Origin: Arthrobacter jinronghuae
Lineage (GTDB): Bacteria > Actinomycetota > Actinomycetes > Actinomycetales > Micrococcaceae
DNA: 64,000 nucleotides
NCBI RefSeq assembly: GCF_025244825.1
Contig: NZ_CP104263.1
Location: 682,001 to 746,000 of the forward strand
Direction: 5' to 3'
The position numbers were made by a program, and so were the translations under genes. The notes below the pieces were generated by a model that was not told where the DNA came from, did no database searches, and was given only the letters and a program-made list of their open reading frames with translations. Below, piece by piece: positions 38,080 through 60,619 of this stretch; the stretch's first letter is position 1, and every line of letters starts with the position of its first letter.

Positions 38080-38166
38080 TGAACTCCCCCTGTTACTAAG
38101 TGGACCCAACCTAGCAGCAGGTGATTGGAACGGCGGGGAACGTTTTACGCAAGCACTCAGTACAAA

Positions 38167-38919
38167 TCAGAGCCGTGGTCGCTCGAGAACCTGCCTCACA
38201 TACCCATCCAGAAGTGCAGCCAGTTCGTCGTCCGAGAGTATGTCCAAAACAACATGCGAGCGGGCAGCCAATACCCGGGGGATCAACCCCCTCATGAGTT
38301 CAGTTCGAAGTATGGACAGAAGCCCGTTCGCTTCAGCCCGCCATGCTGCATCCCGGGCTGCCCTTGCTACTTTTCGGTTCCCCGAAAGGCCGGACCGTTC
38401 CATAATCTGCACAAACTCGTCCTCACCCAATGGAGAGCAACCACCGGGGGCCGCGTTCAGGTCCGGCCCAAGAGCCCACGCCCGCCACCAGAGGCGACGG
38501 AGTGCGTTTCGGGGTACGCCAATAAGTCGATTCTCAGCTCTCTGGGGGAAACGCCAGGGTGCAAGCTCGGGAACCAATACCAGCGTGAGGAAACTCCAGA
38601 CACCTTCGACGGCGGCGTCTCCGGGGACAATTCCGAGCTCCCTATATAGGTAGGTGCCCAAGGTGCGGTCGAGATTCTGTTGAGATCGTTGATCGAGCTT
38701 AGAGGGAAAGCCGTACTTGGATGCGATCTCTCGGAGTCCGTCCTGGATCCGTTGCAGCTCTTGTGGTGGAACAGGGATTCCGCCTACAGCCGCAGGGGCC
38801 GCAGACGGGTGGCTGAGGGCAGCATAGCCCACCAATTCAGTGAGGCCTTTGTCGGCGAGCTCGGCGATAATCCTGTGCGCGACGTCGCGGGGCAATCGAG
38901 GATAGATGTAGATGCTCAT
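38167..38919 (-). CDS. DUF6339-like helical protein, cassette copy 1
   Basis: A 250-residue, mostly helical protein. Recognisable positions are W-x-FL-x-x-V (near 103-110), a long basic helix ending RLWWRAWAL (near 133-141), EDE-x-x-x-I-ERS (near 160-170) and a C-terminal LSDDEL helix. The same positions, in the same order, occur in the protein encoded at 54773-55534, which also ends a GHKL/beta-protein/helical triple. I recall this family as DUF6339, with limited certainty. No catalytic motif is visible. It is the last gene of the nine-gene minus-strand run and overlaps its neighbour by four bases. Confidence 0.7.
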   Translation of the reverse strand: MSIYIYPRLPRDVAHRIIAELADKGLTELVGYAALSHPSAAPAAVGGIPVPPQELQRIQDGLREIASKYGFPSKLDQRSQQNLDRTLGTYLYRELGIVPGDAAVEGVWSFLTLVLVPELAPWRFPQRAENRLIGVPRNALRRLWWRAWALGPDLNAAPGGCSPLGEDEFVQIMERSGLSGNRKVARAARDAAWRAEANGLLSILRTELMRGLIPRVLAARSHVVLDILSDDELAALLDGYVRQVLERPRL

Positions 38920-39809
38920 GACAGTCTTCCTATGGTGCTTTGCACATGGGCCTCAAACTTGGACGGTTCACTGTCCCAGAGTTTCCGGAGAATGTGCGGA
39001 TCCGAGATTTGTGGCCACAGCTGCTGCAGGAGGCATCGGAGAACGGCTGCCACTGAGGGGTCCTCATGATCGGGCTCCCGGTCGAGAACTGCATCTGTCT
39101 GCACTGCCAGGACGGCCATCTGGCGGGTCACATCAATGTCCAGCAAATGCTGCAGCTGCTTGTTTTCCGGGGTGTGCGGTCCCTGCAGGAGACGCTTAAC
39201 CGCCGGCTGTGACGTGTTCATGGACAGGCGCACGGCACTCGCAAAGGAGGCTTCCGGGTCGGAGAGGTCGGCATCCAGCTGCCAAAGGGCATCGGGAGTG
39301 TCCGGGCGTGTTCGCCGGAAATCTTCCGCATCCGTTGGGAACTGGGCCCCGATCCCCTGGAGATAGACATGTGCCGAGTGTTTCCAGAGGATGCTTCCCC
39401 GCTGGTGTGGGGCCAACGGATCCAGAGGGACGGAGGCATCTACGAGGATGAACGTGGTAAGGGTTAGGCGTCCGCCTAACTCGGTGCCGGGAACATCAAG
39501 CTGGAGTGGAACGCGAACATTCGCATCTGCAGGGGCTGCTGCATCCAAGAGCAGGATGTCGGCTTTGGTGGAATCGGATTTGGCTTTGACGACCACTCGG
39601 AACTGGCTTCCTTCCCCCATCCGGCACTGAGCGAGGATAAGCGGACGGTCTATCGTGACCTCAGCTTGAAGGCTTAGCACAGTCTGGTAATCCCACGAGT
39701 CCATCTCTTCCGGAAGCGCTTCGCCGGAACCGTTTCTGGAGAAGAACCACCCTGAATGAGCTACGGAATTTGGGGCCGGAGTGTAGAAAGGTGACACGGA
39801 GATTTTCAT
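38916..39809 (-). CDS. Beta-rich protein of unknown function, cassette copy 1
   Basis: The 297 residues split into a strand-rich half (about 1-150, with alternating hydrophobic stretches such as QFRVVVKAKS and LTLTTFILVDASVPL) and a helical half (about 195-297, starting DIDVTRQMAVLAV). The protein at 55534-56394 has the same two-part layout, with corresponding strands (GTVVVELRVIATSAIP) and helix (PEIQIGLVVLPAL), though identity is low. It is sandwiched by 4-base overlaps between the GHKL ATPase and the DUF6339-like gene, so the three are made together and may form a complex. No enzyme motif is recognised. Confidence 0.65.
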   Translation of the reverse strand: MKISVSPFYTPAPNSVAHSGWFFSRNGSGEALPEEMDSWDYQTVLSLQAEVTIDRPLILAQCRMGEGSQFRVVVKAKSDSTKADILLLDAAAPADANVRVPLQLDVPGTELGGRLTLTTFILVDASVPLDPLAPHQRGSILWKHSAHVYLQGIGAQFPTDAEDFRRTRPDTPDALWQLDADLSDPEASFASAVRLSMNTSQPAVKRLLQGPHTPENKQLQHLLDIDVTRQMAVLAVQTDAVLDREPDHEDPSVAAVLRCLLQQLWPQISDPHILRKLWDSEPSKFEAHVQSTIGRLS

Positions 39810-41677
39810 GCAGTACTGCTTTCTACACCCGCTGACACATCCCAGAGAACACTGGATGCTGATGAACGTTTCGCGCAGATGACTGCGTGTACGGGCTCGT
39901 CACCGAAGACTTTGAACCCCGAATGGTGCCCCTTCAAGGGTTCTCGGTTCCCGTCGTACTCCGCGGAGACCAATTCCAGCTGCGGGTCCAGCGTGGCATC
40001 ACTCGTAGCACCATCCAGCGCAACCCCCACAGAAACAGTGACAAACGTAACGTCAGTGCCCTTAGGAGGTGTCACGAGGCAGCGCAGATAAGATGCGGTT
40101 TGGTTGCCGAGCATACGGGGGCCGGCGTCGAGTAGCTCGATGGACACCCGCTTCGGACCCCTCTTGCCGGCGCCGCCACCGCCGGACGCCCCGGGCCGCC
40201 CCTTGCCCTGCCCGGTGGTTCCGACCAAGTGGGAGAGTGCGTTAGCCACCGCGGCTGTACTGGTCGATTCAACAGCTGCTGCCGGCTTTGGCCTGCCCCA
40301 CTGCGTCAGGACTGCGCGGTCGATCTCACGAAGGGCTTTGAGCACACGCAATCGCTGGTCGCGGAGAGTGACGAGGTTCGGTTGCCATGAATCATGCGTT
40401 GGCGGTTCGGCATGAGCAAATGCGTCGTCCAGGGCATCGTCAGCGCGAAAAACACCGGCCCATTCGATACCTTCCTTGGCTGGCGGACCTTCCCGATACT
40501 CAACCACGAGTTCCGGGGAACGTAGCAGCACCGTGTGGTTGCAGGCCCGGTTCGTGAACGGTGAGGCCGGAGGCGGGCTGTCAGGATCATCCGGCTTGTG
40601 CCCGTCATCAATAGCCACGGGTGTGCTGAAAGGGGGAGTCGGAAATGGGACTGTTGCCAGCCTTCCAAGCCGCTCTTTGTTGCGCTTAATCTCATGGAGC
40701 CGCACAACTGCTGTTGGTTCACCACCGTCTCCCCTGAGAGCCGAGTAGGCCGCAACGAAGTGGTTTAGGGGCGGTCTTGAAGTCGGTTTCGGAATGGAGA
40801 TTTCTGAACCGTCGAGGGTTGTTCGGATATCCATGGCCCTATCGTTGCCAACGAGCTTGGGCCAGAGATGCCATAAAACCGACTCGGCAATAAAGGTCAT
40901 GCCCTGGTGGATGGTTCTGTGTCCGAAGTCAGGATCGAGGATCAGAATGTTCGTTCCCAGCGAGCCTTCAGCGATATCCGGCATACCAAGCCGAACGGCC
41001 AGCGTGTCTGCCTCAATGCCCTCCAGAGGGATGGGTTCGCTCGAATCGTCTCTGCCCCACCAATGGCGCCCTGTATGGAGGATCCCGCCGAGCGCGAACT
41101 GACTACCGATACTGCAGGCGATCAAGCGGCTCACGGGAGCACCGTTATGAATAGCCCGGCTGTGAACAACTATGGTGTGGGGTCGTGAAGCGATGTAGGC
41201 AATGGTCTTGCCGAAGCCGTAGGTACCTCCAGTCATGCCGTCGGTGTTGGCCTTGCCCACATTGAGGATGAAGTCGACCCAGTCATAGTTTCCATCCGTC
41301 GACTCCAGATGCCCTTGGACTGGTCCTCCAAGTCCTTTCGTATTGCGGTCGGACACATATAGGCCCACTAGGTCCGGGCGTTGAAGGGAGTGCGCGAGCG
41401 TTGGATCCGGAAGTTCGGAGGCGTTGTGGAAAACGGATTCACGAAGGCAAGTGACAACGCTCGCCGCCAAGGTCTCGGCAGCGATGTTGAAAACCACCGG
41501 TGCTCCACTTCCATCACGCGCGTCCCAACTGTTTTGTGCTGTTTCCCTCACTAAAACGGCCAGAGGATCGAGATTGGGGCGGCCGAGTAGTTTTGCGAAC
41601 CCGTCAGCCGCTAACCCTCCACTAGGGGAAAACCGCTCGGGTATCCAATCAAGAATCACTGTCTGCAAATCCCTCAA
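39806..41677 (-). CDS. GHKL-type ATPase with RETAQNSxDAR motif, cassette copy 1
   Basis: A 623-residue protein whose first 170 residues carry a GHKL/Bergerat ATP site: N-box RETAQNSWDAR (44-54), D-box VSDRNTKGLGG (108-118) and G2 box GGTYGFGKT (150-158). After about 200 residues of mixed structure there is a Gly/Ser/Lys-rich linker (about 475-500) and a beta-rich C-terminal domain. It differs from the MutL-like ATPase of the same operon and matches the 56391-58277 protein in motif wording and domain order. A TTG start at 41677 overlaps the DUF4420 gene by 29 bases; GTG at 41659 would shorten this to 11. A conformational ATPase role is likely. Confidence 0.75.
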   Translation of the reverse strand: MRDLQTVILDWIPERFSPSGGLAADGFAKLLGRPNLDPLAVLVRETAQNSWDARDGSGAPVVFNIAAETLAASVVTCLRESVFHNASELPDPTLAHSLQRPDLVGLYVSDRNTKGLGGPVQGHLESTDGNYDWVDFILNVGKANTDGMTGGTYGFGKTIAYIASRPHTIVVHSRAIHNGAPVSRLIACSIGSQFALGGILHTGRHWWGRDDSSEPIPLEGIEADTLAVRLGMPDIAEGSLGTNILILDPDFGHRTIHQGMTFIAESVLWHLWPKLVGNDRAMDIRTTLDGSEISIPKPTSRPPLNHFVAAYSALRGDGGEPTAVVRLHEIKRNKERLGRLATVPFPTPPFSTPVAIDDGHKPDDPDSPPPASPFTNRACNHTVLLRSPELVVEYREGPPAKEGIEWAGVFRADDALDDAFAHAEPPTHDSWQPNLVTLRDQRLRVLKALREIDRAVLTQWGRPKPAAAVESTSTAAVANALSHLVGTTGQGKGRPGASGGGGAGKRGPKRVSIELLDAGPRMLGNQTASYLRCLVTPPKGTDVTFVTVSVGVALDGATSDATLDPQLELVSAEYDGNREPLKGHHSGFKVFGDEPVHAVICAKRSSASSVLWDVSAGVESSTA

Positions 41678-42656
41678 TTAGGTCGAGCATTTCAACTTGT
41701 TCCAAGGGTGTGGGTGGCTCGTTGGTTACATCAATGACGTAGGTTATCGACACCACTCCTGGGGGAAGCTCAGATTGCTCAAATGAACGCGGAATCACCC
41801 TTGGAAAATGTTCTTGTTGGACGTCGTATAACCTCTGCTCTTTCAGACTGAACTTTGAGTTCTGATATGGCTCTCTATGCGAGTCAAAATAACCCGCCTT
41901 GCGAAGTTTTCGTTCGAAAAGAGACGATTCCACCCCGAGGTTGAGAATCGTATCGACCATACTTGGCAGCGAATCCCCTGCCGAGGAACGCTCATACCGG
42001 GTATAGGCCAGGAACAACTTGCCCGCGTCGTTGTTCGGTGCTTCGAGTTGGTGGAGGCTGCTGATGCCGATCCGGCGCCCTTCCCGAGCAAGGGACGCTT
42101 TCACCTCTATGGCAGTATCACCGGCACAAAAATCATGCTGTGACTTATCGGGTCCGTGCCAGTGAGACAGAGCTTGATGGTCTCCTGCGCGAACCAGCCT
42201 TTCCAGCATTTGGAGTTCAGCAAGCAGACCTATCTGCTCAGAAACGTTTAGCTCCGGTCCCGAGGCTGCAGCGAAGAGGGCTTTCCACTCTTGGAATGCG
42301 CGTGTCACGTCATGTGCCGGAGACTCCGATTCACGAAGCACCTCCAAGAGTTCGCGTGCGAATTGCGTAAAAACTGTATCCAGTCTTCGCACCGTGCAGA
42401 ACGCACTTAAGTAATCCCGTGACTGAAATTTCACCCTGCTCAAGCGAACCGCCGCCCCGTCAGCCTGTTGGGTCACAGCCTCGCCGGGAAGCAAGGGGAT
42501 GAGCAGATGACGATCCGACTTCGAGTCGAGCGCTGCCAGGACGTCGCCCGCCTCAACACTGACGCCGATCGGGTTCGCCTGTGTAATCCCTTGCGTTCCC
42601 GTTCCTTCTGCGGAGTTGACCATCCACACTGAAAGAAGGTCTGGATATTCGGTCAT
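41649..42656 (-). CDS. PD-(D/E)XK motif protein (DUF4420)
   Basis: A 335-residue protein of the DUF4420 type found beside Z1 helicases. The nuclease core reads SQHDFCAGDTAIEVKAS, with Asp175, Glu184 and Lys186 forming the D-x(8)-E-x-K metal site, and Glu147 in the preceding helix. It is likely the DNA-cutting subunit of the MutL/Z1 restriction-like system. The ATG overlaps the Z1 stop by four bases. Its own 3' end runs 29 bases into the next ATPase gene, linking the core system to the cassette. Confidence 0.82.
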   Translation of the reverse strand: MTEYPDLLSVWMVNSAEGTGTQGITQANPIGVSVEAGDVLAALDSKSDRHLLIPLLPGEAVTQQADGAAVRLSRVKFQSRDYLSAFCTVRRLDTVFTQFARELLEVLRESESPAHDVTRAFQEWKALFAAASGPELNVSEQIGLLAELQMLERLVRAGDHQALSHWHGPDKSQHDFCAGDTAIEVKASLAREGRRIGISSLHQLEAPNNDAGKLFLAYTRYERSSAGDSLPSMVDTILNLGVESSLFERKLRKAGYFDSHREPYQNSKFSLKEQRLYDVQQEHFPRVIPRSFEQSELPPGVVSITYVIDVTNEPPTPLEQVEMLDLIEGFADSDS

Positions 42657-45259
42657 CCCAGAGCCACCTTGTCGTGGGAGCCCTCAGCATCCACGTAGGC
42701 GTTCAGGCTGTCGTCGGCTTCGTCAGTATTGAGCATGGACACATCCACCTGAATGGCGTTCTTCGGCTCCGATCCTGCGGCAGCGGCGGGGAAGGAGAAC
42801 GCCACACCCACCACATGCTCCTCGGCATTCAACTTTTTGCGGCGGTCCAAATGGGGTTGGGGTGCGGAGTCCTTGTCAATGGGGTAGATCACTAGCAGCG
42901 GACGTCCCTCAGCATTGCGAACTTCCTGTAGCTGAGCATCGCTCGCAGCCTTAGCCTGGCTGGCTGTCCACCCCAGATCGAGTACACGATCAACCCGTGA
43001 CATCAGCGTGCCGATGTTCGCTACGTCTGGATCACTGCTTGCGAGCTGTGAACGAGTGATCAGGTTCACGCGTTGCTCGAGGCCAAGGTCGAGTGTTTCC
43101 GCAGACCTGTCGCTTTGACCGGATTTCGAGACCACTGCAATGTTCCATTCACGGAGCGCCCCGAACTCCAGTTGCGTTTCTACATAGTCGCGGAGCATGC
43201 CCTCGGACATCTCGGACTTGTCATTAAAATGATAGTGATCCAAGAAGCTCAATATTGATTCGGCGGGAACTCCCTTGAAAACGATCCTCTCACCGTATAT
43301 CCCCTCATCAAGGGCATCGTCTTTTGCGGCTGATAGAAGCTCCTTCGTTGCTTCAATGTTTCCCGCCAGAATCTCGGGATCGGTCCGGTCGAAATATGTC
43401 GTTTGGGGGTGGGTTTCGCTGAAGGAGGCAGATGCCTTTATCGCGAACTGCATCTTCAGGGGAGACGTCACCTGCATTCGCGGATGGGTCTGAATGCGTA
43501 CTGCCACATCACGTGGCGACGCAGCTCCCCCCTCGTAGCGTTTGATTTCTGATCGAAGATCGCTTTCAATCTCTGCGAGGAACTGGAAGTCATCCTTAAG
43601 CTTGCGGGTAGTCCAGACCCGAGGAAGATCCTCGTAACCACGCCGATACCCGAACCAGCGTCCCATCTGAAGTGCGGAATCATAGGCACCCGCTGTCCTC
43701 AGGAAAAATGAGGACACAAGGCCTTCCAGGGTTAGGCCCCGGGAAAGCGTGTTGCCGCCCACAGCAATGACCGTCGCTGGGTCCGCGGCGTAAATGAGGC
43801 GCTCGGGCGAGGCGCTGTTGTCAGCGACCACCTTCGTGTCAGTGAGTACGTCGGGTAGCAGGCCCAGCAACTCTTCGAATGACGGCGCTACCAAATTGTG
43901 GCGGGCAGCCGGTTCCCGTTGCACTTCGGATTCCCACTGGTTCTGCCACTTCGTCGTGTCGCCGCTTCGGAGTTCTTTCTGCAGGTCTTTCACATGTTTC
44001 CGGATAACCGGCACCAAAGTGTTCTGAGGTTCGACCCTCATGGTTGTGTGGATCAGCATGCTGGAGTGCTTGGCCTCTCCGTTTCTAAACCGCCGCGCAG
44101 CCGTAGCCAGCAGAAACCAGCGGATGGCGTCGGAGAGGCTGGGGGTCACTTTGGGGGAGTAGGGGCTCTTAGGGCTGGATTTGTACGCCTCCGCTTCGGA
44201 CTCAGGTACGAACCGGATCATGTTGTGGCCCTGGTCATCGGAGCTCTCTTCCGGCTCAGCCACGGGAGCTCCGAAGAGTTCTTCGGAGCCGAAGTATCCG
44301 GCCGGCTTTGGGAGGGAATAGATGAAGTCCCGCGGATAAATGTTCTTCGGGTCTGCGGGATTGGCCAAAACGTTGGCAAACGGTGTGGCAGTATATCCCA
44401 CGTACGCCACACGGGGCAACCCCAAGAGATCTACGAGCAAGCCGTTAATGGCTGTTTGATCGAGCTCTGCATCTCTTGCGGAGTTCGGACTGGCCTGGTC
44501 TGCCTCGTCGTCAATGATGAGCACGGGACACTTGTTAAGACCGCCCTTTTCATGGGCGTCCAAGAGCCAGTCGCGAAGGTTTGTGAGCCGCGAAACGTTC
44601 TTTTTTACCACTGCCAACAGCCGCAACTGTGACCCGGCAACCAGTGGAAGCGCTTTGACGGGATTGCCGAAATCGCCGAATTCATCTGTTAGCTGGACCC
44701 AGTCTGCCGGTCTCAAATCGCAAAGCTGACTGTCCAGGCGCAGTTGGGTCTGGCGTCGCAGGGAGTTGTGCACGCCGGAAAGGACTATGAACAGTCTGTA
44801 GCCTGCATCAGCGGCCTTCGCGATGGTGGCAGTAAAATTGGCAGTTTTACCCGACTGGACATAACCGAGCACCATTCCGCGTGTCCGGATGGTTTCGCTG
44901 TGCGGATCGGCCAGTAGGGACACTACATCTGTGGAGGTCTTGTCGAGAGACGGAACGGCATTCGCCCAACCCGGGTCGGCTTGCAGCTTTGCCTTGAGGC
45001 TCGGCCAGAAGACATCATGGGGTTGGGGGCCGGCATACCATGGCTCCGTTTCCGATTCCTCATCGAATACGGTGACGTCGTGAGCGTCGGCGAGTCTTTG
45101 CTTGATGATCAGGTCGCGTTCGGTAAGAACGTCCTCAACCAACCCGTCATTGTTGAGCATAATACGCAAGGTATTTATGGCAGCGTCTTTGGAAACGCTG
45201 GTTTTTATAAGAACTTCGAGGGTATCCAGCGCCGCGAGCCCTTGGGCGTTTAGGGCCAT
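42653..45259 (-). CDS. Z1 domain helicase-like ATPase, second copy
   Basis: An 868-residue protein with Walker A GYVQSGKTANF at 132-142, Walker B LIIDDEADQASPN, the ATPFAN motif III-like segment and the GGNTLSRGLTLEGL and MGRWFGYRRGYEDL stretches that define Z1 proteins. The Z1 family is a superfamily I/II-type ATPase seen in MutL-Z1 restriction systems. The same motifs recur in the 47438-50308 gene, but the flanks differ, so this is an old paralogue rather than a recent duplication. It lies between AIPR (51 bases upstream) and DUF4420 (4-base overlap). An AAGGA site precedes the ATG. Confidence 0.88.
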   Translation of the reverse strand: MALNAQGLAALDTLEVLIKTSVSKDAAINTLRIMLNNDGLVEDVLTERDLIIKQRLADAHDVTVFDEESETEPWYAGPQPHDVFWPSLKAKLQADPGWANAVPSLDKTSTDVVSLLADPHSETIRTRGMVLGYVQSGKTANFTATIAKAADAGYRLFIVLSGVHNSLRRQTQLRLDSQLCDLRPADWVQLTDEFGDFGNPVKALPLVAGSQLRLLAVVKKNVSRLTNLRDWLLDAHEKGGLNKCPVLIIDDEADQASPNSARDAELDQTAINGLLVDLLGLPRVAYVGYTATPFANVLANPADPKNIYPRDFIYSLPKPAGYFGSEELFGAPVAEPEESSDDQGHNMIRFVPESEAEAYKSSPKSPYSPKVTPSLSDAIRWFLLATAARRFRNGEAKHSSMLIHTTMRVEPQNTLVPVIRKHVKDLQKELRSGDTTKWQNQWESEVQREPAARHNLVAPSFEELLGLLPDVLTDTKVVADNSASPERLIYAADPATVIAVGGNTLSRGLTLEGLVSSFFLRTAGAYDSALQMGRWFGYRRGYEDLPRVWTTRKLKDDFQFLAEIESDLRSEIKRYEGGAASPRDVAVRIQTHPRMQVTSPLKMQFAIKASASFSETHPQTTYFDRTDPEILAGNIEATKELLSAAKDDALDEGIYGERIVFKGVPAESILSFLDHYHFNDKSEMSEGMLRDYVETQLEFGALREWNIAVVSKSGQSDRSAETLDLGLEQRVNLITRSQLASSDPDVANIGTLMSRVDRVLDLGWTASQAKAASDAQLQEVRNAEGRPLLVIYPIDKDSAPQPHLDRRKKLNAEEHVVGVAFSFPAAAAGSEPKNAIQVDVSMLNTDEADDSLNAYVDAEGSHDKVALG

Positions 45260-45309
45260 TTTTCATCCTTGAACTTGATACGAGAGTAAAGCAACCGTGT
45301 GGTGACGTG

Positions 45310-47385
45310 TCACCAAGGACTAAAGAGGGTAAATCCCCGTTCGTTGGCATTGGCAACCAGCTGGATGAGCCTGGCAGCCTGCCTTTCTGAAGGGACTCCG
45401 GTTTTTCGTCCTGTCATAAGTCCCAGGATGCTCATGTCGGTAGGGGACGCGACCCTGTTCATGCCGGCAAACCCTTCCAGCGCCTTCCAATGCTCTGTTG
45501 GGATCTCATAGAGCCGGGTTTGCAGGCCGATTCCATTGTCCACCTTTTGGTTCGCCTTGGCAGCTTTGCCGCGGGCAGCGACGGTGGCGGCGTCAACCAA
45601 AGCCGAGAGGAAGTCTGCGGGCAACGTGTAGGGCATGGCTTTGATGGTGTCCCAGCACTGGGCCTTTTTGGCCCACTCCGTGACGTTCGTTGTACTCCGA
45701 TGTTCGCTGGTGAGGACCTCCTGGACGAGGCGTCCCACCTGGTTCGCGACTACCAGGACGGAGTCCGGCACGGCTTGTGCGGACCACACGGCGTCAAAAT
45801 CGAAGACCTTGCCTTGTCCCTGCCGTTCTACCAAGCTGGCAATCTTGGCAACGGTGTAGGCGGCTATGTTCGCCAAGTACGCCTTGCGATACCAGTCAGC
45901 ATTCTTGATAACGTTCCTGACCTCGGCGAAGAGGATGCCCTTGGCTACCGTCTCTTTAAAGTACTGTTCGTTGAACTGGTCTGGATCCTTATCCCAGCTC
46001 TTGGCCACGATATCGGCAAAAGCAACGAAGTTCTTTTGTGCCCCCGAGCTCACAGTGTGGGGCCGCTGGTCCCATGACATAAGGTATTTGGCCAATGCCG
46101 GTTTATCGAACTTTTGCGACTTCGGATTCAGATTTTCGAAACGGACGGCCTCTGAGCGTGAAAGCTTACTGCGTTCATTTTCATATTGCCCGCGAGTACG
46201 TTCGTAGTACCAGTGGGTGCTGTGGACGGCACCGGAACGGGACGGGACAAGAACCTTGCGCGAGAGCTCGGCCAGGCGGACGTGGTATGGACTGTTGGAA
46301 AAGAAGTCCGCCGAGCTGACTGCATTCTGGCTGTTCGCAAACCGCGAAATGTTCGGTATGAGCTCGGCGGCGAGAGCGGGAGCGACGACTACCAGCTTCA
46401 TTTGGACGAAGACGCCATCCAAAACTCCCTCAGATTTTGCTTCCCTTTGCACAAAAAACAACGACGCGGTGGTCTGGCCGCCATTCACTATTTGCAGATC
46501 TTCGATCGACAGAATGGAACTTCCGTCCTCAGACGTTGTGACACTAGTCGCTGTGGCAGTTACTCCGTTGTTGAACGCCATGAAGTTCTGCGGAGCGGAA
46601 TGGATTGTGGCACGGATTCCCTTGTTGATCTTGCCTCTATTGCTGAGGTAGGACCTCACGTTACTTTCGAGCAGCCGGCTCCCATGCTTGGCATACAGGG
46701 AGGACAGGACCCGGCCAGGCACGGAGGTCAGGTAGGTCGCAAACTCTGGCGTGGATTCGACCCGAAGCGCGGGAAGCCCTTGGTTTGCCCACTCCGTCAG
46801 ATCGATCTGAAGCGGCTCATGGCCGCTCTGGGACTGGTGGAGCTGGTGGAAACGCTCGATATCCCAAAGATGAAAGTCCACGGGGATTCCGTGGATGTCC
46901 TCAGAAGGTAGGGAACGCAAACGATCACTCAACCGGGCATCTGTCATGAGATAGAGACGGTAGCGCGAAACGTTCCTGCCCCTGCTCCGCAGATCCCACG
47001 CGAGCTGATATGCCGGCGAGCTTTGTTCTCGCCCCTGCATGAAGCTCCCATCGAGTGCATCCAGCAGGAAGTAGTGAAGGGCCCTGAGAGCAGCTTTGGC
47101 GTCGGTAGCCGAGAGCGTTTGAATAGTCTCAGTCCCGTAATGGACGCTTGCGACGACGGCAATACTGTTATCTGCGTTCTCGAGGTCGTAGCCATTGACC
47201 TTGAGTTTCCGCTGATTGGTACCCGCGCCCTCGAAGTCCAAGACTTCGATGTCATCGAACTCGCCCGCTTCGGTCAGTATTTCTCCACAGTGCCTAGTAA
47301 AGGCGGTAGCGACGAATTCTCCCTCGGCGTTAGCCAAGGCACCGACAGCAGCGGCCTGCTGCTGGAAGTAGCTCTCAATATCCAT
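45310..47385 (-). CDS. AIPR family (abortive infection phage resistance) protein
   Basis: A 691-residue protein with the AIPR hallmarks FNNGVTATA (271-279) and QIVNGGQTTASLFF (298-311) in the middle, plus an N-terminal region with nuclease-like strands. AIPR proteins were named from a lactococcal abortive-infection gene and occur repeatedly with Z1 and MutL-like ATPases in defence loci. The biochemical activity is not settled in my knowledge. It has a clear GGGGGA site before its ATG and sits between the two Z1 genes with 50-base gaps on both sides. Confidence 0.88.
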   Translation of the reverse strand: MDIESYFQQQAAAVGALANAEGEFVATAFTRHCGEILTEAGEFDDIEVLDFEGAGTNQRKLKVNGYDLENADNSIAVVASVHYGTETIQTLSATDAKAALRALHYFLLDALDGSFMQGREQSSPAYQLAWDLRSRGRNVSRYRLYLMTDARLSDRLRSLPSEDIHGIPVDFHLWDIERFHQLHQSQSGHEPLQIDLTEWANQGLPALRVESTPEFATYLTSVPGRVLSSLYAKHGSRLLESNVRSYLSNRGKINKGIRATIHSAPQNFMAFNNGVTATATSVTTSEDGSSILSIEDLQIVNGGQTTASLFFVQREAKSEGVLDGVFVQMKLVVVAPALAAELIPNISRFANSQNAVSSADFFSNSPYHVRLAELSRKVLVPSRSGAVHSTHWYYERTRGQYENERSKLSRSEAVRFENLNPKSQKFDKPALAKYLMSWDQRPHTVSSGAQKNFVAFADIVAKSWDKDPDQFNEQYFKETVAKGILFAEVRNVIKNADWYRKAYLANIAAYTVAKIASLVERQGQGKVFDFDAVWSAQAVPDSVLVVANQVGRLVQEVLTSEHRSTTNVTEWAKKAQCWDTIKAMPYTLPADFLSALVDAATVAARGKAAKANQKVDNGIGLQTRLYEIPTEHWKALEGFAGMNRVASPTDMSILGLMTGRKTGVPSERQAARLIQLVANANERGFTLFSPW

Positions 47386-47437
47386 TTGTCCCCCATTGTC
47401 TTGATGGTGATCCCTGAGAGGATCGGTTGTGCTGCAG

Positions 47438-50308: not shown

Positions 50309-50310
50309 TT

Positions 50311-51774
50311 CTAGAACTCCGTCCCGTAGGCAGTTTCACGGAGGGCCGCTTCGGCGCGCGGGTGCTTGTCGAACGGTTCCGAGGTGAGCATGGCTTTGAC
50401 AAAGGCTTCCGGGGCGAGCGTGGTCTGAAGCTGTCCCCAGAGCGCCCTTGCCAAATCCCTAAGGTCTTGGTCCTGCACCTCCGCGCCGGAGTGGGACAGG
50501 TCCTGCCCCATCTTGTTGTAAACATCCTCGATGGGAAACGTTCGCTCCATGAGACTCAGAACGGTTTCCAGGGCAGCCGACTCATGACGATCGAACGTGC
50601 TGCTGAGCGCGATCAGTGCAGGGTGATTTCTGTTGACCTCGTAACGGAACGATTCAGCGTCAGAGACGGCATTCCAGATGTGTGTGATGGGACTGCGCTC
50701 TGTTCGCCCGCGATAGGTGTGCGCGCGCTGGCTCGGGCCCACAATGGTGGCTGCAACGGCGCGAAGCCGGTCCCTAATGACGGGCGGAGGTACCGCTTGG
50801 GCCTTCTTGATGTCTAGGGACCACAGATGATCCAAGGAATTCGGAACATCTACTTGCACCCGAGCCAGCTTGCCCAATTCCTGTTTCGGAGCCACACGGA
50901 ACCAAGTTCCCCAGATAACAAGGCGCATTGCCCGGTAGATGTAGAAACCCTGGCTGTCGCGCAATGAGCCGTTTACATGGGCCCTCCTACGGTCCGAGGG
51001 AGACATCATGTTCAGGTGAGGCAGAGTATAGGGACGCAGTTCGATAGTGCCTTGGTCCAGAGATATGCGTTCCAGCGGACCAATTTGGGTAGCTTTGTGA
51101 TCCTTGAGCAGGGGGTCAGTCGCAGGGACAGAAGTGAAGTTCATACGGATATCGAGCTGCCGTCCATGCTCGCCCGCTAGGAATCGATGAAAAACGAGTC
51201 CCAAATGGGAGGCAGCACGCAGCATGGCTTCATCCATGGACGCGATTGAGTTTCCACTACTGTTTTCGAGCTGATCAAGATCCTGCCAGAGGATCATGGT
51301 CCCGTGATCCAATGTCTCCAACGCCGCATACTCCGGGAGCGCCTGGTATTCTTCCGGTGCAAGCCGCAAGAGACTCCAGCTAGAGGAGCTGCTGAGATAA
51401 TCCAAGTCCCAGCGGAAAGCATGTATCTCGCTGCGTTGTTTTGTCACCAGGGTGAGCTTGCGGCACTGGGAAATGGATGCGGTTTTGAGTCCGAGGCCGA
51501 ACCGTCCGAGATCGTGGCTCGCACGCAGGTTCCGCGAGTCATTCCCTGCCAAACGCATGGCATCTTGTGCTTCCAAGGCGGTCATCCCCAAGCCGTCGTC
51601 GATGACGGCAACGTAGGGCTCACCTACTGCAGAAAACCGAATGTCCACCGTTGCTGCGCCGGCTGTGATCGAGTTGTCGACAAGGTCGGCCAACGCGGTT
51701 TCCAAGTTGTACCCGACAGCCCTCATGGACTCCATGAGCTGCGGTCCAGGCAGCAGTGTGATCGCGTCCGTCAA
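50311..51774 (-). CDS. MutL/MORC-like GHKL ATPase
   Basis: A 487-residue GHKL ATPase. The N-box is ALADLVDNSITAGA (27-40), the G1 box DDGLGM (59-64) and the G2 box GRFGLGLKTAS (90-100), all intact. This spelling (LVDNSI, FGLGLKTAS) is that of MutL/MORC-type proteins in restriction-modification loci. A TTG start at 51774 has a GGGGGACG site; no ATG or GTG keeps the first strand. It is separated from the methyltransferase by 106 bases containing three hairpins, and is joined by two bases to the first Z1 gene. It should act as an ATP-driven clamp or signalling subunit. Confidence 0.88.
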   Translation of the reverse strand: MTDAITLLPGPQLMESMRAVGYNLETALADLVDNSITAGAATVDIRFSAVGEPYVAVIDDGLGMTALEAQDAMRLAGNDSRNLRASHDLGRFGLGLKTASISQCRKLTLVTKQRSEIHAFRWDLDYLSSSSSWSLLRLAPEEYQALPEYAALETLDHGTMILWQDLDQLENSSGNSIASMDEAMLRAASHLGLVFHRFLAGEHGRQLDIRMNFTSVPATDPLLKDHKATQIGPLERISLDQGTIELRPYTLPHLNMMSPSDRRRAHVNGSLRDSQGFYIYRAMRLVIWGTWFRVAPKQELGKLARVQVDVPNSLDHLWSLDIKKAQAVPPPVIRDRLRAVAATIVGPSQRAHTYRGRTERSPITHIWNAVSDAESFRYEVNRNHPALIALSSTFDRHESAALETVLSLMERTFPIEDVYNKMGQDLSHSGAEVQDQDLRDLARALWGQLQTTLAPEAFVKAMLTSEPFDKHPRAEAALRETAYGTEF

Positions 51775-51799
51775 GCGTCCCCCAGAGCTAAATGCGATT

Positions 51800-51872
51800 A
51801 GTACTTATGAGGATCAGACTATCCTCTCGTACTGACATTCCTGTTCTAGGAAACCCCAGCGGGTGCTTGGGG
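51800..51872 (-). other. Three consecutive hairpins between methyltransferase and MutL-like genes
   Basis: In transcript order: CCCCA/TGGGG (51854-51858 with 51868-51872), TTCCT/AGGAA (51838-51842 with 51848-51852), and a compound hairpin with AGTAC/GTACT (51800-51804 with 51829-51833) outside GAGGAT/ATCCTC (51809-51814 with 51821-51826). They fill most of the gap, ending 26 bases before the TTG. Attenuation or RNA processing between methylase and effector genes would fit. Confidence 0.4.
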
Positions 51873-51880
51873 GATGCTGC

Positions 51881-53359
51881 TCAGCTGTATCCCATAACTT
51901 CGGCCACACGCTGTGCAATTTTCGATGCCAATAGTGGTGGAACCGCGTTCCCCACCTGCGTGTACTGCTGAGTCCGATTCCCCAGGAAGACGTAGTTGTC
52001 GGGGAAGGTCTGCAGCCGCGCCGCTTCCCGCACGGTCAGGCTTCGCATCTGTTCATGGTCAGGATGAATGTAGTAATGCCCGTCTTTGGCGATGTGAGAC
52101 ACGACAGTGGATGAAGGTTTCACCCACGCCTGGACCCGGAACCGATCCTCGAAGGGCACCACCACGTTGTTGATGTTGTTGTGCTTGGGCCAGTGGGCAG
52201 CCGGCAGGCTGCGCACCTTCGGGCTCGAACCGTCGGCCGTCACCAGCGCAGCCAGCAGATAATAGCGAACCAAATCTTCAAGCATGTGGCCACGGGCTTC
52301 ATGGTTCCACGTAACAGGTGCAGCATCTTTACGGAGCCATGTTTGGAGCTCACCTGCTGCGGAGGCCTTATCGAAGGGCTCCGGGGGGCGGACGGATGTC
52401 GACTTGGTGTCGAGTTCGTAAGGGCTGGGAGCGGACGCCCGCTCTTTACCCGGAAGCGCCTGCAAGAACTTGTGCGCTTGCTCGCGTATGGTGGCCCAGT
52501 CCTCCCACGTGGCATGCGGACGGCGGGAAATGCCCGAGCGCAGGTGGGGCAGAGACCAGATAGCATCCTGAACAGTTACGGGTTCGCGGTGTTCAAGGGC
52601 CTTTGGGGCCGGAAGCTGGGCGTCCCGGCGCAGGCCTACGATGATTACCCGGTGGCGCTTCTGGGGAATTCCATACAGCTCTGACTTGATGATGAAGTCG
52701 GAGGGTTTGAGTTCCCCGGTGTCGCTGTTGACCACCATGGAGTGGAGATCGTAGCCAGGTGCTCGCAGATCCTGTTCGATGAGCTCGAAAATCTTGCCGT
52801 CCCCGCTTTTGGACGAGAGCATCCCTTTTACGTTCTCCATCACGAAGACCGCGGGGCGGAACTCGGTGATGATGTGCAGGTATTCCTTGTACAGGAAGTG
52901 CTTGTGGTCGTCTTTGAAGGTGACGTCGTGCTTGCGGCGGGACCGCCCAGCCATGGAGTAGGCCTGGCACGGCGGTCCACCGATCAGGACCCATTCAGAG
53001 GCGTCCTGAAGCGATTCCCGAATCAACGTGTCCGACTCTGGACGGCTGTCCTCGCTCAGGGTGAACTGTCGGACTTCTTCTTCTGCGTGTTCGAAAGCCG
53101 CTGCCACCTCGGGGGCTGATCGCATCTCGTCGTAGGTGACGTCCTTGGCGAGGAACCGTTTGTAGATCTCAGGTTGACCTTCAGGTAAATCGGAAAGGAA
53201 CCGGTGAGCTGCGCGCAGGGTCAGGGTCTTTACTGCCGATGTCTCCATCTCGATCGACAGAACCGTCTGGAAGACGCGGTTGCCATCCTCGTCTCGGATG
53301 CTGGAGAAGCCTTCGTTTAGGCCACCAGGGCCAGCAAAAATGTCAACGATGGGAATCAC
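51881..53359 (-). CDS. DNA (cytosine-5-)-methyltransferase
   Basis: The GTG at 53359 is preceded by an ideal GGAGGAAACC site, giving 492 residues; a TTG four codons earlier overlaps that site and is unlikely. C5-methylase motifs are in order: I (DIFAGPGGLNEGF, about 6-18), IV (GGPPCQAYSMAGR, 127-139, with the catalytic Cys), VI (FVMENVKG, about 173-180) and X (QVGNAVPPLLASKIA near the end). It should methylate cytosine at a specific site, protecting host DNA from the MutL/Z1/DUF4420 system, or from the divergent HNH protein. The target site cannot be predicted. Confidence 0.92.
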   Translation of the reverse strand: MIPIVDIFAGPGGLNEGFSSIRDEDGNRVFQTVLSIEMETSAVKTLTLRAAHRFLSDLPEGQPEIYKRFLAKDVTYDEMRSAPEVAAAFEHAEEEVRQFTLSEDSRPESDTLIRESLQDASEWVLIGGPPCQAYSMAGRSRRKHDVTFKDDHKHFLYKEYLHIITEFRPAVFVMENVKGMLSSKSGDGKIFELIEQDLRAPGYDLHSMVVNSDTGELKPSDFIIKSELYGIPQKRHRVIIVGLRRDAQLPAPKALEHREPVTVQDAIWSLPHLRSGISRRPHATWEDWATIREQAHKFLQALPGKERASAPSPYELDTKSTSVRPPEPFDKASAAGELQTWLRKDAAPVTWNHEARGHMLEDLVRYYLLAALVTADGSSPKVRSLPAAHWPKHNNINNVVVPFEDRFRVQAWVKPSSTVVSHIAKDGHYYIHPDHEQMRSLTVREAARLQTFPDNYVFLGNRTQQYTQVGNAVPPLLASKIAQRVAEVMGYS

Positions 53360-53724
53360 GGTTTCCTCCAAAATCAGTACGGCTCTCCAGGTTACCAGGC
53401 AGGAACGTGGAGCCTAGTAATCTTACCGGCCCTGCGCGTTCGCCTTCGCCCCAGTGAACATCACCGCGCTGACAGTTTCATCACTTGGGTCATCAACGCG
53501 GAGACGGCTAGCCTCGTTGTCGGAGCCGAGACTCCGCGCAATTGCACGGATGGAATCCGACAGAATACCCGTACGGTTATAGCTGTTCCTTCTGCTGGTC
53601 CTCCACCTCCAAGGCGTCCGAACCCTGCTGTTACGCGTCTGTCACGTCTTGACTCGAGGGCGTGGCGCTAGGCACGACGGCCAGGCGGTCCCTCGGGTAG
53701 GCCCGTGGTGGCACCATTGGTGTC
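53360..53724. other. 365-base divergent gap with a possible gene remnant
   Basis: This separates the methyltransferase from the HNH gene and must contain both promoters. On the minus strand a frame of about 70 codons ends at 53423 and reads like normal protein near its end (DSIRAIARSLGSDNE..., VDDPSDETVSAVMFTG) but has no start codon or ribosome site. It may be the tail of a decayed gene. No repeat or known regulatory motif was found apart from short stems such as CGGAG/CTCCG (53521-53536). Confidence 0.35.
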
Positions 53725-54675
53725 GTGACTATTACAGATCTTCCACGGGTTCCTCGAGCTTGGCTGCTTCTCACGGTTGAGGACAAAGACAGGGACTTTG
53801 GCAGTAATGACGGATATCTTGATGAGCCGGAATCCCATTATCGCTGGGACGATACGGTGCCGAATCACGCAAGAATTTCAGCGGGAGACAGCATTGTTCT
53901 GTGGGATAAGAAGTCCAGCATTGGCGTCTCGGTAGTGGACAGTATTGACGTCGCGACCGAAGACAAGTCAATTTACAGCTGTCCTCAGTGCCACAGGGCC
54001 CACATAAAGGCCCGGAAAACTAAGTCACCCCAGTATCGGTGTTTTAAATGCGGAAACGAATTCGATGTGCCCGAAATCGAAACCAGAACAGTGTCCACTT
54101 ACACTTCGAATCACGACACTGCATGGGTCGGTCTGGAGGGAGTGCTTTCTGGCGCAGAGCTGCGCGCGGTGTGTGAAAGTCCGAAGTCTCAGCTGAGCTT
54201 GCGTGCCCTCGGGTGGGAGTCCTTTAAGTCCTTGGTTGAAGCAACCGGGTTTGGCCACGAGCTTGCTGTTCCCGCCGCACACTCGAGGAGAATAAACGGC
54301 GGTCACTCCTTGGCACTTGTGCGAGTACGCAAGGGGCAGACGCTCTTTCGAAAGTCCCTGATTGATCGCTACGGGACGACGTGTGCCTTCACAGGGGAAT
54401 GCCCCCTTGAAGTACTCGAAGCGGCACACCTATATAGCTATGGCGCCGTGGGTGAGCACCATGAATACGGTGGTCTGCTTCTCCGCAGGGACCTGCACCG
54501 GTTGTTTGATTGTGGAAAAGTAGCCGTCAATCCGGCGTCCCTGGTCTTGGATATTGCAGACGAACTTCATTCATATGTCCTCTACCAACAACTACACGGA
54601 AGCAAACTGCGGGTAGGGATTAGCGCGAGTCAGCGAGGATGGCTGGAGGACCACTGGAAGCAACACAGGGGATAG
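53725..54675 (+). CDS. HNH endonuclease-type protein with zinc ribbon and PUA-like N-terminus
   Basis: A GTG start gives 316 residues. Residues 10-80 look like an EVE/PUA-type fold (AWLLLTV... and SIVLWDKKSSIG) used for reading modified bases. Next is a zinc ribbon with Cys86, Cys89, Cys106 and Cys109. The C-terminal 100 residues are an HNH domain of the HNH_2 type: CAFTG (220-224), LEAAHLYSYG (231-240) and GGLLLRRDLHRLFD (249-262). The usual Asn of the NGLLL segment is Gly here, an oddity that could reduce cleavage. Divergence from the cytosine methylase suggests a restriction partner or a modification-dependent nuclease. Confidence 0.78.
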   Translation: MTITDLPRVPRAWLLLTVEDKDRDFGSNDGYLDEPESHYRWDDTVPNHARISAGDSIVLWDKKSSIGVSVVDSIDVATEDKSIYSCPQCHRAHIKARKTKSPQYRCFKCGNEFDVPEIETRTVSTYTSNHDTAWVGLEGVLSGAELRAVCESPKSQLSLRALGWESFKSLVEATGFGHELAVPAAHSRRINGGHSLALVRVRKGQTLFRKSLIDRYGTTCAFTGECPLEVLEAAHLYSYGAVGEHHEYGGLLLRRDLHRLFDCGKVAVNPASLVLDIADELHSYVLYQQLHGSKLRVGISASQRGWLEDHWKQHRG

Positions 54676-54772
54676 TCCTCCGAGCTGATGCAACCAGCGC
54701 TCCTACAGCAGACCACAACCGGCAGCTGAGACAGCGCATCCTGCCCTGATTAGGGTTCGGCACGAAGAACTT

Positions 54773-55534
54773 TCAGACGGCGTATGGGTGCTGGACAACG
54801 AAGGATCCGTCGATGACCTTCCTCATCTCCGCCTTATCGAGAGTGCCCAAGTCTCGGTAACCATAAACCAAGGTTATTTCCACCATCAGAGCACGTATGT
54901 GCTTCTCATCGGAGAAGGCCCCGCCCTGGGCAATGTGGTCAAGTACGGAACGAACCAGTTCCGGGAGAGCACCCGACTCACGGTCAAAAAGCGCCATGAT
55001 GCGGTCCTCACGGTGGAACGCCTCACGGGTATAGGCGAAAGGATCACCGGCTGCCCGCGAAAGCGGGTGCTGACAGGTCACGTCGTAGGTGAGGGTGGTG
55101 ACCCACCAGAGACGGGCGATTCCGTGGCGGACGAGTTTGCCACGCGTGGCGTTAAGCATCAACCAGCGGTCTTCAACGCGTGACTTCCAATTCTTGTCCT
55201 GCTCAAGTGGCCACCTTTTTTCCATATATTCACGGAAGGTCACGAAGGCCAGGAATGTCCACAGCCGGCGGTCAGAAGCATTCGCCCTGTCGAGTGCACC
55301 CAGATACTCGTAAACGAGGGGAGCATTGTTCTCATCTCTCGCAGATGCCTGCTGAGCGCCGGGGTCCAATGGATCCGGGACGCCGAGATTGAGAGGAAGT
55401 TCCAAAATGTTCTGAGGGTCGTTCAGAATCACTTCGGTCTCTGCGAAAAAGTCATCGGGACTTGAGGCAGCATCAAGTGCAGATTTTATGTCTCTCAACG
55501 CACCGTACGTTACTGCCCGTGCTTGCATGTCCAT
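54773..55534 (-). CDS. DUF6339-like helical protein, cassette copy 2
   Basis: A 253-residue helical protein, counterpart of the one at 38167-38919. It shares LW-x-FL-x-x-V (near 91-98), a basic helix ending ARLWWV (near 139-145), a helix EDRIMALFDRESG (near 176-188) and a C-terminal LDKAEMRKVID helix. Overall identity is low, so the copies are old. The ATG overlaps the preceding stop (TAATG). It ends this minus-strand run and converges with the HNH gene 97 bases away. No active-site motif is seen. Confidence 0.68.
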   Translation of the reverse strand: MDMQARAVTYGALRDIKSALDAASSPDDFFAETEVILNDPQNILELPLNLGVPDPLDPGAQQASARDENNAPLVYEYLGALDRANASDRRLWTFLAFVTFREYMEKRWPLEQDKNWKSRVEDRWLMLNATRGKLVRHGIARLWWVTTLTYDVTCQHPLSRAAGDPFAYTREAFHREDRIMALFDRESGALPELVRSVLDHIAQGGAFSDEKHIRALMVEITLVYGYRDLGTLDKAEMRKVIDGSFVVQHPYAV

Positions 55535-56394
55535 TATTCGTCCCCCATATGGTTCAAAGCCGTACTCAACGCCTTGTCTAGCGGGTACCCCAGCATCTTT
55601 TGCGCCAACTCAAATGTGGGGTCTGCAAGAGATCCATTCTCAGTTATCAACCTCAGCAGCGCCTTATACCAAGACTTATCCGACATGTCCTCGCCACTGT
55701 CTGCGGATTCATTTTCCTTGATGAAATCAATGGCTTCCATGAGCGCCGGTAGGACTACCAGTCCTATCTGAATTTCTGGGCGCACCGAAGCAAAGTGCGG
55801 TTGGAGTCTCTCTGGAAAGGTCACGAGGACATAATCGTCATCAAAAAACTTGACACTGATTCCTCGCGTCCTTTTGGAGTCACTTTCGAAGCGAAAACAA
55901 GAGCCTACAGGCGGCACTAGCGGGTCGTACCGCTTTTCCGGTTCAAACTGGAACGATCCGCCTTCAGCCAGCACGTCGCCTGGAAGGATGCTAAACGTTG
56001 AGTCCGCATATTCAGGATTTTGGTTTGTAAGCCGATACTCTGGAATCGCAGAGGTCGCAATGACTCTGAGCTCGACGACGACGGTGCCTCGAATATCCTC
56101 TTGATCGATAGAACCTGCATAGGTTGCTCCGTCTGGATGTCGCTGTTGGATAGTGGCACCAAGCTCGCCCGTTGCGATGGTGGACGTACAAGTCCAACGG
56201 AAGCTGTACCGAGCGGCCCCGCTCTCAATGAGGGTCTGTACGTCAGGATCCGACATCCGAACCTGGAACTTCACCTCCACATCGTTCACATTTGGTGTAA
56301 CTGCGGCATTGAAAACTTGGAATACCGAATTGACATCGTCAGAGGCGTCGAGGACCGGATGAGGGTACGAGCCTCTCTTTGTTGATGATTTCAC
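55534..56394 (-). CDS. Beta-rich protein of unknown function, cassette copy 2
   Basis: A 286-residue protein with a GTG start inside the ATPase stop region (4-base overlap). The strand-rich first part has V-x-V-K-F-x-V (41-47), YSFRWTC and GTVVVELRVIATSAIPEYRL. The helical end has PEIQIGLVVLPALMEAIDF and SWYKALLRLI. The arrangement parallels the 38916-39809 protein. It could be an adaptor between the ATPase and the helical protein; this is inference from gene order only. Confidence 0.65.
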   Translation of the reverse strand: MKSSTKRGSYPHPVLDASDDVNSVFQVFNAAVTPNVNDVEVKFQVRMSDPDVQTLIESGAARYSFRWTCTSTIATGELGATIQQRHPDGATYAGSIDQEDIRGTVVVELRVIATSAIPEYRLTNQNPEYADSTFSILPGDVLAEGGSFQFEPEKRYDPLVPPVGSCFRFESDSKRTRGISVKFFDDDYVLVTFPERLQPHFASVRPEIQIGLVVLPALMEAIDFIKENESADSGEDMSDKSWYKALLRLITENGSLADPTFELAQKMLGYPLDKALSTALNHMGDE

Positions 56395-58277
56395 TTGATC
56401 CCCAGACGGTATCGATGCGGCGATGACAATTTGAGCCGAATGTGAGACGTCACACCGGCCTCTAGCTTCAGATTAGATAAGACGTTGCCCTTATTCTTGA
56501 GGGCAACGTGGGTCGATCCAGTGCTGACTGTTCCCCCCTTGATTGGAAGAACAAATCCGTCCTCCATGCTGCCGCCAGGTCCGAGCGGCACTAGTTCAAG
56601 GTCACCCTCGATGCTTTCGGCAGCAGTGATTGAAAGGCACAGGTCGCCAGTGCCCCCCTCGCACCAACTGCGAAATCGCACGTCTCCCGCTGTGATCCTG
56701 CCGGATCCGTCCCCGAGGGATCCGGTTCCCTCCAAGTCGCCCCCGGAGTTGGTGCGGCTCGATGATCCCCCCGCGTCCTTGCCCTTCTTGGCGGGCGTCT
56801 CACCGTCACCTGCAGCCGACGTACTTACGCCAACCTTGAAAGAGCCGCTTGAACGGACCTGGACTGATTCGCTGCCTCCATCGGTACCGCGGATAGTGCT
56901 GGATTCAGTCTTGGTTCCCTGACCGTTTATCGGGGTCCCTGTGCTCCCCAATAGATGGGATTTGTCTTCGAAAACCTCCATGGGCAGATACCGAGCCAAC
57001 CCCTTGACCTCAATTTGGTCGCCGAAGTGCTGTTTTACGCGGCTCTTTAGCCCCTCACGCACGAAATTCTTGAGCTCTTTAATTATCGCTTTGCCGTGCG
57101 GGGCCCGTTCAGGGTCCCAGCGATGATGCTGTGGAGGTTCCAGCGCGCGGAGAAGTTTGTTGCCTTCGTCATCGGAACATTCCAAAACCGCGGCGTACTT
57201 GATCGGAATCGAGTTATGTCGAAAGGTATCGATCTTCATAAGTGGTTTGCGGACTGTAATCGTGTGCAAGCTCTTGTCAAGACTGTCGTCAACATTGATG
57301 TAAAGAGACAAACTGCCGAGCTGGTCGCTAGCACCGACTATCGGTTCCTCGTCTTTTATGGCGCGATAAAAAGCGTGAGCTTCGGAGTCCTCGAGGACGC
57401 TCGTATCCAACGTGTTTGAGTCCAAGGTCCAGGTGCAATCCGCTGTTATCCCATCCACAACCAAGTTGCCCCGATCAATGGCCAGCAGGAAGTTCCGCAT
57501 GAGGGCTACCTTGATGTGGCGCAGATCCGGGTCGGCCCCGGCTTTTCGGTAACCGAGGATATAGACGTCGGTTCCGGGCGCGGTCCGCTCAGGGAAAGGG
57601 CCGAGCGCACCTGGGTCTCGAAGGTAGCTGAAATCTTCCATGCACGTGAGGTCAGTGAAAAAACCATCACCTACGTGCCATTTCCCGTCCCCATCGCGAT
57701 GGCTTGCCAAGCAACTGTAGCCCGCGAAGACCACGGAGGGTTGGTTATGCGGACGGGATGTGTAAAGAACCGTGCTCATGTTGGATGCCATGGGACCCAC
57801 AGCAGACCCAATGCCGAAGGACCCGCCGCGGGAACCGTCGTCAGCTGAGATTCCGGCACCGCGGGTGAGAGCGCTCAATGCCGAGGTGGGATTATCCATT
57901 GACTCCGAACCGGTTAAGCCCTTTGTGCCATAGTCGCTGATGCGCAGTACCTCAATGTGTTCCTGCATGGCAGTGTCATAGGCAAGCTTCATGTTGGCGT
58001 GACCCTGCGCGCCGCGGGTCTCCTCTGCTACCTGTTTCAAGGTTGCACGAAGACCTTCGATGCCAGGAACGTCTGCCGTTTCCATCGCCTTGAGCTCGAA
58101 AACCATCTTGACTGTCTCATCGCCCAACCGGGCATCTATGGAGTTCTGTGCCGTTTCACGAACGAGCGAGGACTCGGCCAGTGAACCTTCGAAGAACTGC
58201 TCCGCTGGGGAGATTGCGCCTTGCGAGGCACCTCTTCCCGCCGTCTCAAAATAGAACCCGAAATTGGGGGATGTCAT
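56391..58277 (-). CDS. GHKL-type ATPase with RETAQNSxDAR motif, cassette copy 2
   Basis: A 628-residue protein. The ATP site has N-box RETAQNSIDAR (40-50), D-box ISDYGTKGLTG (113-123) and G2 box GGSFGIGS (151-158). The N-box and the D-x-x-TKGL wording are shared with the 39806-41677 protein and not with the MutL-like one. The G2 box lacks the final Lys of copy 1 (GSAV instead of GKTI). A Gly/Ser/Thr-rich linker (about 455-525) precedes a beta-rich C-terminal domain, as in copy 1. It overlaps a 75-residue gene upstream and the beta-rich gene downstream by four bases each. Confidence 0.75.
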   Translation of the reverse strand: MTSPNFGFYFETAGRGASQGAISPAEQFFEGSLAESSLVRETAQNSIDARLGDETVKMVFELKAMETADVPGIEGLRATLKQVAEETRGAQGHANMKLAYDTAMQEHIEVLRISDYGTKGLTGSESMDNPTSALSALTRGAGISADDGSRGGSFGIGSAVGPMASNMSTVLYTSRPHNQPSVVFAGYSCLASHRDGDGKWHVGDGFFTDLTCMEDFSYLRDPGALGPFPERTAPGTDVYILGYRKAGADPDLRHIKVALMRNFLLAIDRGNLVVDGITADCTWTLDSNTLDTSVLEDSEAHAFYRAIKDEEPIVGASDQLGSLSLYINVDDSLDKSLHTITVRKPLMKIDTFRHNSIPIKYAAVLECSDDEGNKLLRALEPPQHHRWDPERAPHGKAIIKELKNFVREGLKSRVKQHFGDQIEVKGLARYLPMEVFEDKSHLLGSTGTPINGQGTKTESSTIRGTDGGSESVQVRSSGSFKVGVSTSAAGDGETPAKKGKDAGGSSSRTNSGGDLEGTGSLGDGSGRITAGDVRFRSWCEGGTGDLCLSITAAESIEGDLELVPLGPGGSMEDGFVLPIKGGTVSTGSTHVALKNKGNVLSNLKLEAGVTSHIRLKLSSPHRYRLGIK

Positions 58278-58501
58278 TCGAATGACACCTTTCTGGTGGA
58301 AGGGGTAGTCGGATCAAAAAGTGCGCGCACAGCAGTTAATTCATCCTCGATGGGGCGAAACAGCGCTTCAACCTCGTCGGGTGTGTACTCGTAGTTCTTT
58401 TGATTCGAAAGATTTCCCAGAAGGGAAATTTCTCGTATGAGCCGGTCTCCCCGCGAAGATGCGAGGCGCCTGAAGCGTTCATTCCGCGTTTCGCCTGACA
58501 T
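58274..58501 (-). CDS. Small charged helical protein heading cassette 2
   Basis: A 75-residue protein with an AGGGAAAAT site before its ATG and a 4-base overlap with the ATPase gene, so it is very likely real. It is highly charged and helical (MSGETRNERFRRLASS..., then TPDEVEALFRPIEDEL) with no Cys and no membrane segment. Cassette 1 has no counterpart, its place being taken by the DUF4420 gene. It may be a regulator or small partner of the ATPase. I do not recognise a family. Confidence 0.65.
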   Translation of the reverse strand: MSGETRNERFRRLASSRGDRLIREISLLGNLSNQKNYEYTPDEVEALFRPIEDELTAVRALFDPTTPSTRKVSFE

Positions 58502-58540
58502 ATTTTCCCTAGGTGCTTGCCGGATATATGTCGACTATAT

Positions 58541-58556
58541 ATCCTAAATATAGGAT
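58541..58556. promoter_or_regulatory. AT-rich palindromic operator between cassette 2 and the HEPN gene
   Basis: A perfect inverted repeat ATCCTA-AATA-TAGGAT lies in a 122-base, unusually AT-rich divergent gap (58502-58623), with -10-like TATATA/TATACT-type hexamers on both strands around it. A shared repressor site controlling both directions is likely. Confidence 0.55.
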
Positions 58557-58623
58557 GTCAACGGAAGAATTAAATGACGCTCCGAGACCTTCGAATCAGT
58601 GGGTCGTCAACTATGGGGGAATC

Positions 58624-59697: not shown

Positions 59698-60619
59698 AGA
59701 GAGAGGGGCTGGTCAGGGGAGCGCCGAGGCAGCAACGGACGATTGCGTGCTTGGTGAGGACGTGCCACAGCTGGACCGGGTGCACCGTCACGACGACGTC
59801 GGAGAGTTGAGCGCAGCGTGTTCCCGGCGGTCTGTCTTGCCGAATAGCGGAGCTATTCTGGCCTCCCTAGTGTGGCGGTCAACGCGGCTGATGGGCGGCC
59901 TCTCGTAGGGCCGGATCGGGCGGCAGAAGGCGATGGTGACCACTCATGACCGCCGCGATCGGTGCGATTGGTTTGCTGCCGAGCCTTCGGGCCGCTGGTA
60001 TCAGTGCTGTAACGCATCTGCCGCCTGGCCCAGAGCTTCTCCGCCGGCAGCGAGTACTGAGGCGGTGTGTATGGCCGGGCCCGCTTCGGATATGTGTAAC
60101 GCGGGTTCGTCCATACGTTCCTGGAGTTCAGCACCACGGTCGGCTTCGTCCTCGCGGCCGGAGCTAGCGGCCGTTCCTGTTGAACCTCCCGCTGGGTCCG
60201 GCCGCCGTATTGATGCCGCCACAGCTGGTGGAAGCCCCCGTCTTCACCGAAGCTCCTCAGTGCATGGGACCACCACATCGCCGCTGCGGCAGGTGCTGGC
60301 AAAGAGTTGATAGCAGCTGCCAGGTCTCGCGGGGTTCATAGTACTGCTGAACGTGGCCGTCTCAATTCTCGAAGTACATGTCGCCGTCGCCACCTGATGG
60401 AACCGCACGAACGAGGGGCCACGAAGAGCCGGGTAGTCATGTTGCGCGCGGTCCGCCACTTCCCTAGCGCTGAGCCGACTGCCGTCGTCGCTGCGCACTT
60501 GCTGATCATCGGCACGGAGGCAAAAGACCATACGTCAGCAAGACGCGACGGGAGCTGCACAGCATAGGCGTATCGCAGGATCACTCTTGGCACATAATGG
60601 AACACAGGGGGATACCACT
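59698..60619. other. 922-base stretch without a supportable gene
   Basis: Several frames are open, but none has a convincing start, ribosome site, codon pattern or family match. One minus-strand frame around 60090-60120 encodes VWTNPRYT, reminiscent of the NPRYTG segment of large serine recombinases, but the context does not continue. The composition suggests decayed genes at an island boundary. The promoter of the SNF2-type gene lies in the last part. Confidence 0.45.

Follow-up and report, generated by a model that had tools for sequence, protein, structure and literature searches.

Two related three-gene sets

The window analysed here is a stretch of 64,000 nucleotides of Arthrobacter jinronghuae NZ_CP104263.1, in which all coordinates are given as positions, and it contains two distantly related versions of one trio of genes encoding a MutL-like ATPase (A and A'), a divergent partner (B and B') and a DUF6339 protein (C and C'). 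Both trios were found where a preliminary description had placed them (Table 1), with identical gene order and strand and with overlaps of 1-4 bases. A small gene, which overlaps A by 4 bases, belongs with the ABC set, referred to below as the M33 set after the PADLOC candidate system PDC-M33. The earlier suggestion that the trio is a mobile functional unit, perhaps a sensor-effector complex, was partly supported overall.

The homology of A and A' was confirmed by comparison of their profile hidden Markov models (HMM-HMM, 99.85% over 374 columns) and by BLASTP (4e-9). As previously described, the motifs RETAQNSxDAR and DxxTKGL are present in both ATPases, and RETAQN is missing from the MutL-like ATPase encoded between the trios. 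Both E and H of the ExxxH motif are kept in 119 of 119 aligned ATPase rows, a few of which are copies of one gene, and the E of the N-box is kept in every aligned row that is ungapped at that site. When the loci were grouped by their B proteins, A-to-A matches reached at least 85.0% in all HMM-HMM comparisons between groups. An ATPase of the A/A' family in an actinobacterium (L034, 8034-11648) has a frame of about 1200 amino acids with a long N-terminal extension.

C and C' are likewise homologous (HMM-HMM, 96.8% over 187 columns; BLASTP, 6e-5). Against Pfam PF19866, with its gathering score of 23.2 bits, C scored above (130.4 bits) and C' below (13.8 bits), and orthologues of C' in two other loci (L021 and L038) carry the DUF6339 annotation. 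Between the B-defined groups, C-to-C matches were at least 94.9% in 8 of 10 comparisons; the other two, both involving the L032/L033 group, gave 21.9% and 14.1%, and no C was found for the L036/L037 group.

The relationship between B and B' is the weakest of the three pairwise links. Their proposed homology was not detected directly, either by BLASTP or by HMM-HMM comparison (3.4%, and still 2.3% with profiles enlarged to 68 B' and 16 B sequences), and it was recovered only via a third family, B3. With a larger sequence sample, the middle genes fall into several families, among which B3 is haloarchaeal and cyanobacterial. Seven B3 sequences gave 95.3% with B' and 70.3% with B; one was translated in the wrong frame, and the six kept for the final values gave 96.9% with B' (E 1.5e-10, 243 columns) and 85.1% with B (E 6.2e-6, 203 columns). 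Null comparisons, which used the earlier profiles with seven B3 sequences, never exceeded 0.7%, whether the profiles were reversed (12 comparisons), their columns were shuffled (60) or B was set against C (9). Since both proteins match B3, B and B' are, on profile similarity, probably related through this family. Some small groups speak against this: the L034 group reaches 77.5% with B' and 89.9% with B3, yet just 0.6% with B, and the L036/L037 and L032/L033 groups reach 26.9% and 40.0% with B', respectively, and at most 1.5% with B or B3.

Genes surrounding the trios

Table 1. Genes of the two trios and their neighbours
Feature	Position	Strand	Evidence
C', DUF6339-type protein	38167..38919	-	Pfam DUF6339 E 0.051 and PADLOC PDC-M33C 0.0058, both weak
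B', middle protein	38916..39809	-	
A', GHKL ATPase with ExxxH motif (paraMORC2-like), 623 aa (amino acids)	39806..41677	-	
D, DUF4420 PD-(D/E)XK nuclease (MzaD-like), same operon as A'	41649..42656	-	PF14390 3.9e-52; MzaD 9.4e-18; 78/80 loci
PF10593 protein	42653..45259	-	PF10593 2.8e-63; 79/80 loci
AIPR protein (MzaE-like), rare addition	45310..47385	-	PF10592 1.6e-90; 3/80 loci, all near-identical Arthrobacter
Second PF10593 protein	47438..50308	-	PF10593 1.2e-64; DTMMQMARWFG motif at residue 580
MutL-like GHKL ATPase (MzaB-like)	50311..51774	-	HATPase_c_3 9.2e-31; MzaB 2.4e-72
C5 cytosine DNA methyltransferase	51881..53371	-	PF00145 2.8e-49
HNH_2 endonuclease-like gene adjoining M33 set	53725..54675	+	PF13391 6.6e-08
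C, DUF6339 protein, PDC-M33C	54773..55534	-	PF19866 7.9e-38; PDC-M33C 5.3e-33
B, middle protein, PDC-M33B	55534..56394	-	PDC-M33B 1.1e-31
A, GHKL ATPase with ExxxH motif, PDC-M33A	56391..58277	-	PDC-M33A 3.7e-77; M33 clade; motifs
Fourth M33 gene, small, 75 aa	58274..58501	-	
HEPN_Swt1 + DUF3320 gene, divergent from M33 set	58513..59697	+	Pfam

The operon containing A'B'C' keeps its order in 74 of 80 loci. The C5 methyltransferase, the sole PF00145 match in the genome, forms the upstream end of the cassette common to the sister strains, with the boundary at 53427-53484. Directly downstream of C' lie a NERD-UvrD helicase gene (29616-31313) and a UvrD and PDDEXK_1 pair (31892-38109); the pair is present in two sister loci (L048 and L049) and absent from a third (L050).

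The HNH_2-like gene beside the M33 set has a relative, 58% identical, close to the M33 set of Paenarthrobacter. The HEPN_Swt1 and DUF3320 gene is probably an M33 accessory, perhaps an actinobacterial one, because the same neighbour (56% identical) is found at the same place beside M33 in Arthrobacter agilis. A group of genes adjoining M33 and continuing past the window end (60587-63511 and L170 588-16748) encodes DrmD-like, MZB/DruE-like and UvrD helicases and a Type IIG/DrmMI-like methylase, and looks like a DISARM-type system. Haloarchaeal trios (L044 and L157) occur with a SprT-like gene, another "ATP-binding protein" and a C5-methylase. Phospholipase D genes lie close by, joined in L157 by genes for a helicase and Zn-binding proteins, and this company is again DISARM-like. 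In Acetoanaerobium (L159, 12264-13499), a DarT-like ADP-ribosyltransferase gene immediately follows the trio, which itself lies behind an hsdM-S-R operon.

Function of the trio

The trio adjoins DNA-methylating restriction genes in both bacteria and archaea, and it is likely an ATP-driven switch for the cutting of foreign DNA. Alternatively, it could form a distinct sensor-effector, probably of the abortive kind, that monitors the adjacent restriction system or senses DNA damage after restriction and that brings about cell death or arrest once restriction has failed. M33 adjoins unrelated types of restriction-modification system, including hsd genes (L159 and L132), B and C are without known function, and the anticodon nuclease PrrC is known from a similar setting beside hsd genes; even so, we regard such a guard as possible but rather unlikely.

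If the trio were a defence system in its own right, brought near methylases merely by the clustering of defence genes, this would fit the window, which is a dense defence island; however, a C5-methylase is present in 75 of the 80 loci, against far lower counts for Shedu (2 of 11) and AbiEii (0 of 20), and the conserved operon order also argues against it, making this explanation improbable. We attach equally little likelihood to the trio being a MutL-like accessory to Vsr-type repair of T:G mismatches arising from 5-methylcytosine deamination. Finally, one trio might have been copied inside the locus so that the two copies came to flank the Mza operon, as the shared gene order, strand and overlaps would allow, but the tree and the sister genomes speak against it, and we consider such a local duplication extremely improbable.

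If the trio is indeed a switch for DNA cutting, a single ATPase core with two companions would serve several unrelated types of restriction system, and parts of many annotated restriction systems would have been missed by current surveys. This would also account for PDC-M33, a still unnamed candidate defence system, place DUF6339 in a context, and provide a simple bacterial model for the action of MORC-type ATPases on methylated DNA.

Comparison with known systems

MzaABCDE is reportedly a system of Gao et al. 2020. MzaB-, MzaC-, MzaD- and MzaE-like genes occur together in the window, but the sigma factor MzaA is not in the window operon, the two matches in the genome both lying outside the window (C1:1549010 and C1:3549490), and the NCBIfam MzaC equivalog cut-off was not reached.

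The paraMORC2 family, found mostly in cyanobacteria and Gram-positives, has a strongly conserved ExxxH, and paraMORC2-5 are reported alongside a special superfamily II helicase, restriction endonuclease-fold nucleases, Vsr and methylases, according to the relevant portion of Iyer et al. 2008 (PMC2292703). The trio ATPases share the GHKL ATP-binding motifs and ExxxH with paraMORC2, although neither the B and DUF6339 partners nor a standalone M33 form is described in that portion of the article. In VcSduA, a Shedu protein, a GHKL ATPase of the kind formerly annotated as paraMORC3 is coupled to a PD-(D/E)XK nuclease, and mutating either part abolishes protection; unlike the trio, it is one polypeptide, and no B or DUF6339 partner is described in the sections concerned (PMC12137116). 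The putative defence system Type I of Miller et al. 2022, as partly presented in PMC9523054, is also among the closest known systems; the comparison with it concerned gene composition alone and covered window positions 38167-45259 and 51881-53371.

The literature search found no paper containing the words PDC-M33 or DUF6339. The genes at 54773-58277 match the A, B and C models of PDC-M33 nearly full length, whereas the set at 38167-41677 does not match all three, the one good match being to A in the N-terminal part (1.4e-16), beside the weak match to C and none to B. To PDC-M33 the window adds the small fourth gene, which, though without a PADLOC model match, is conserved.
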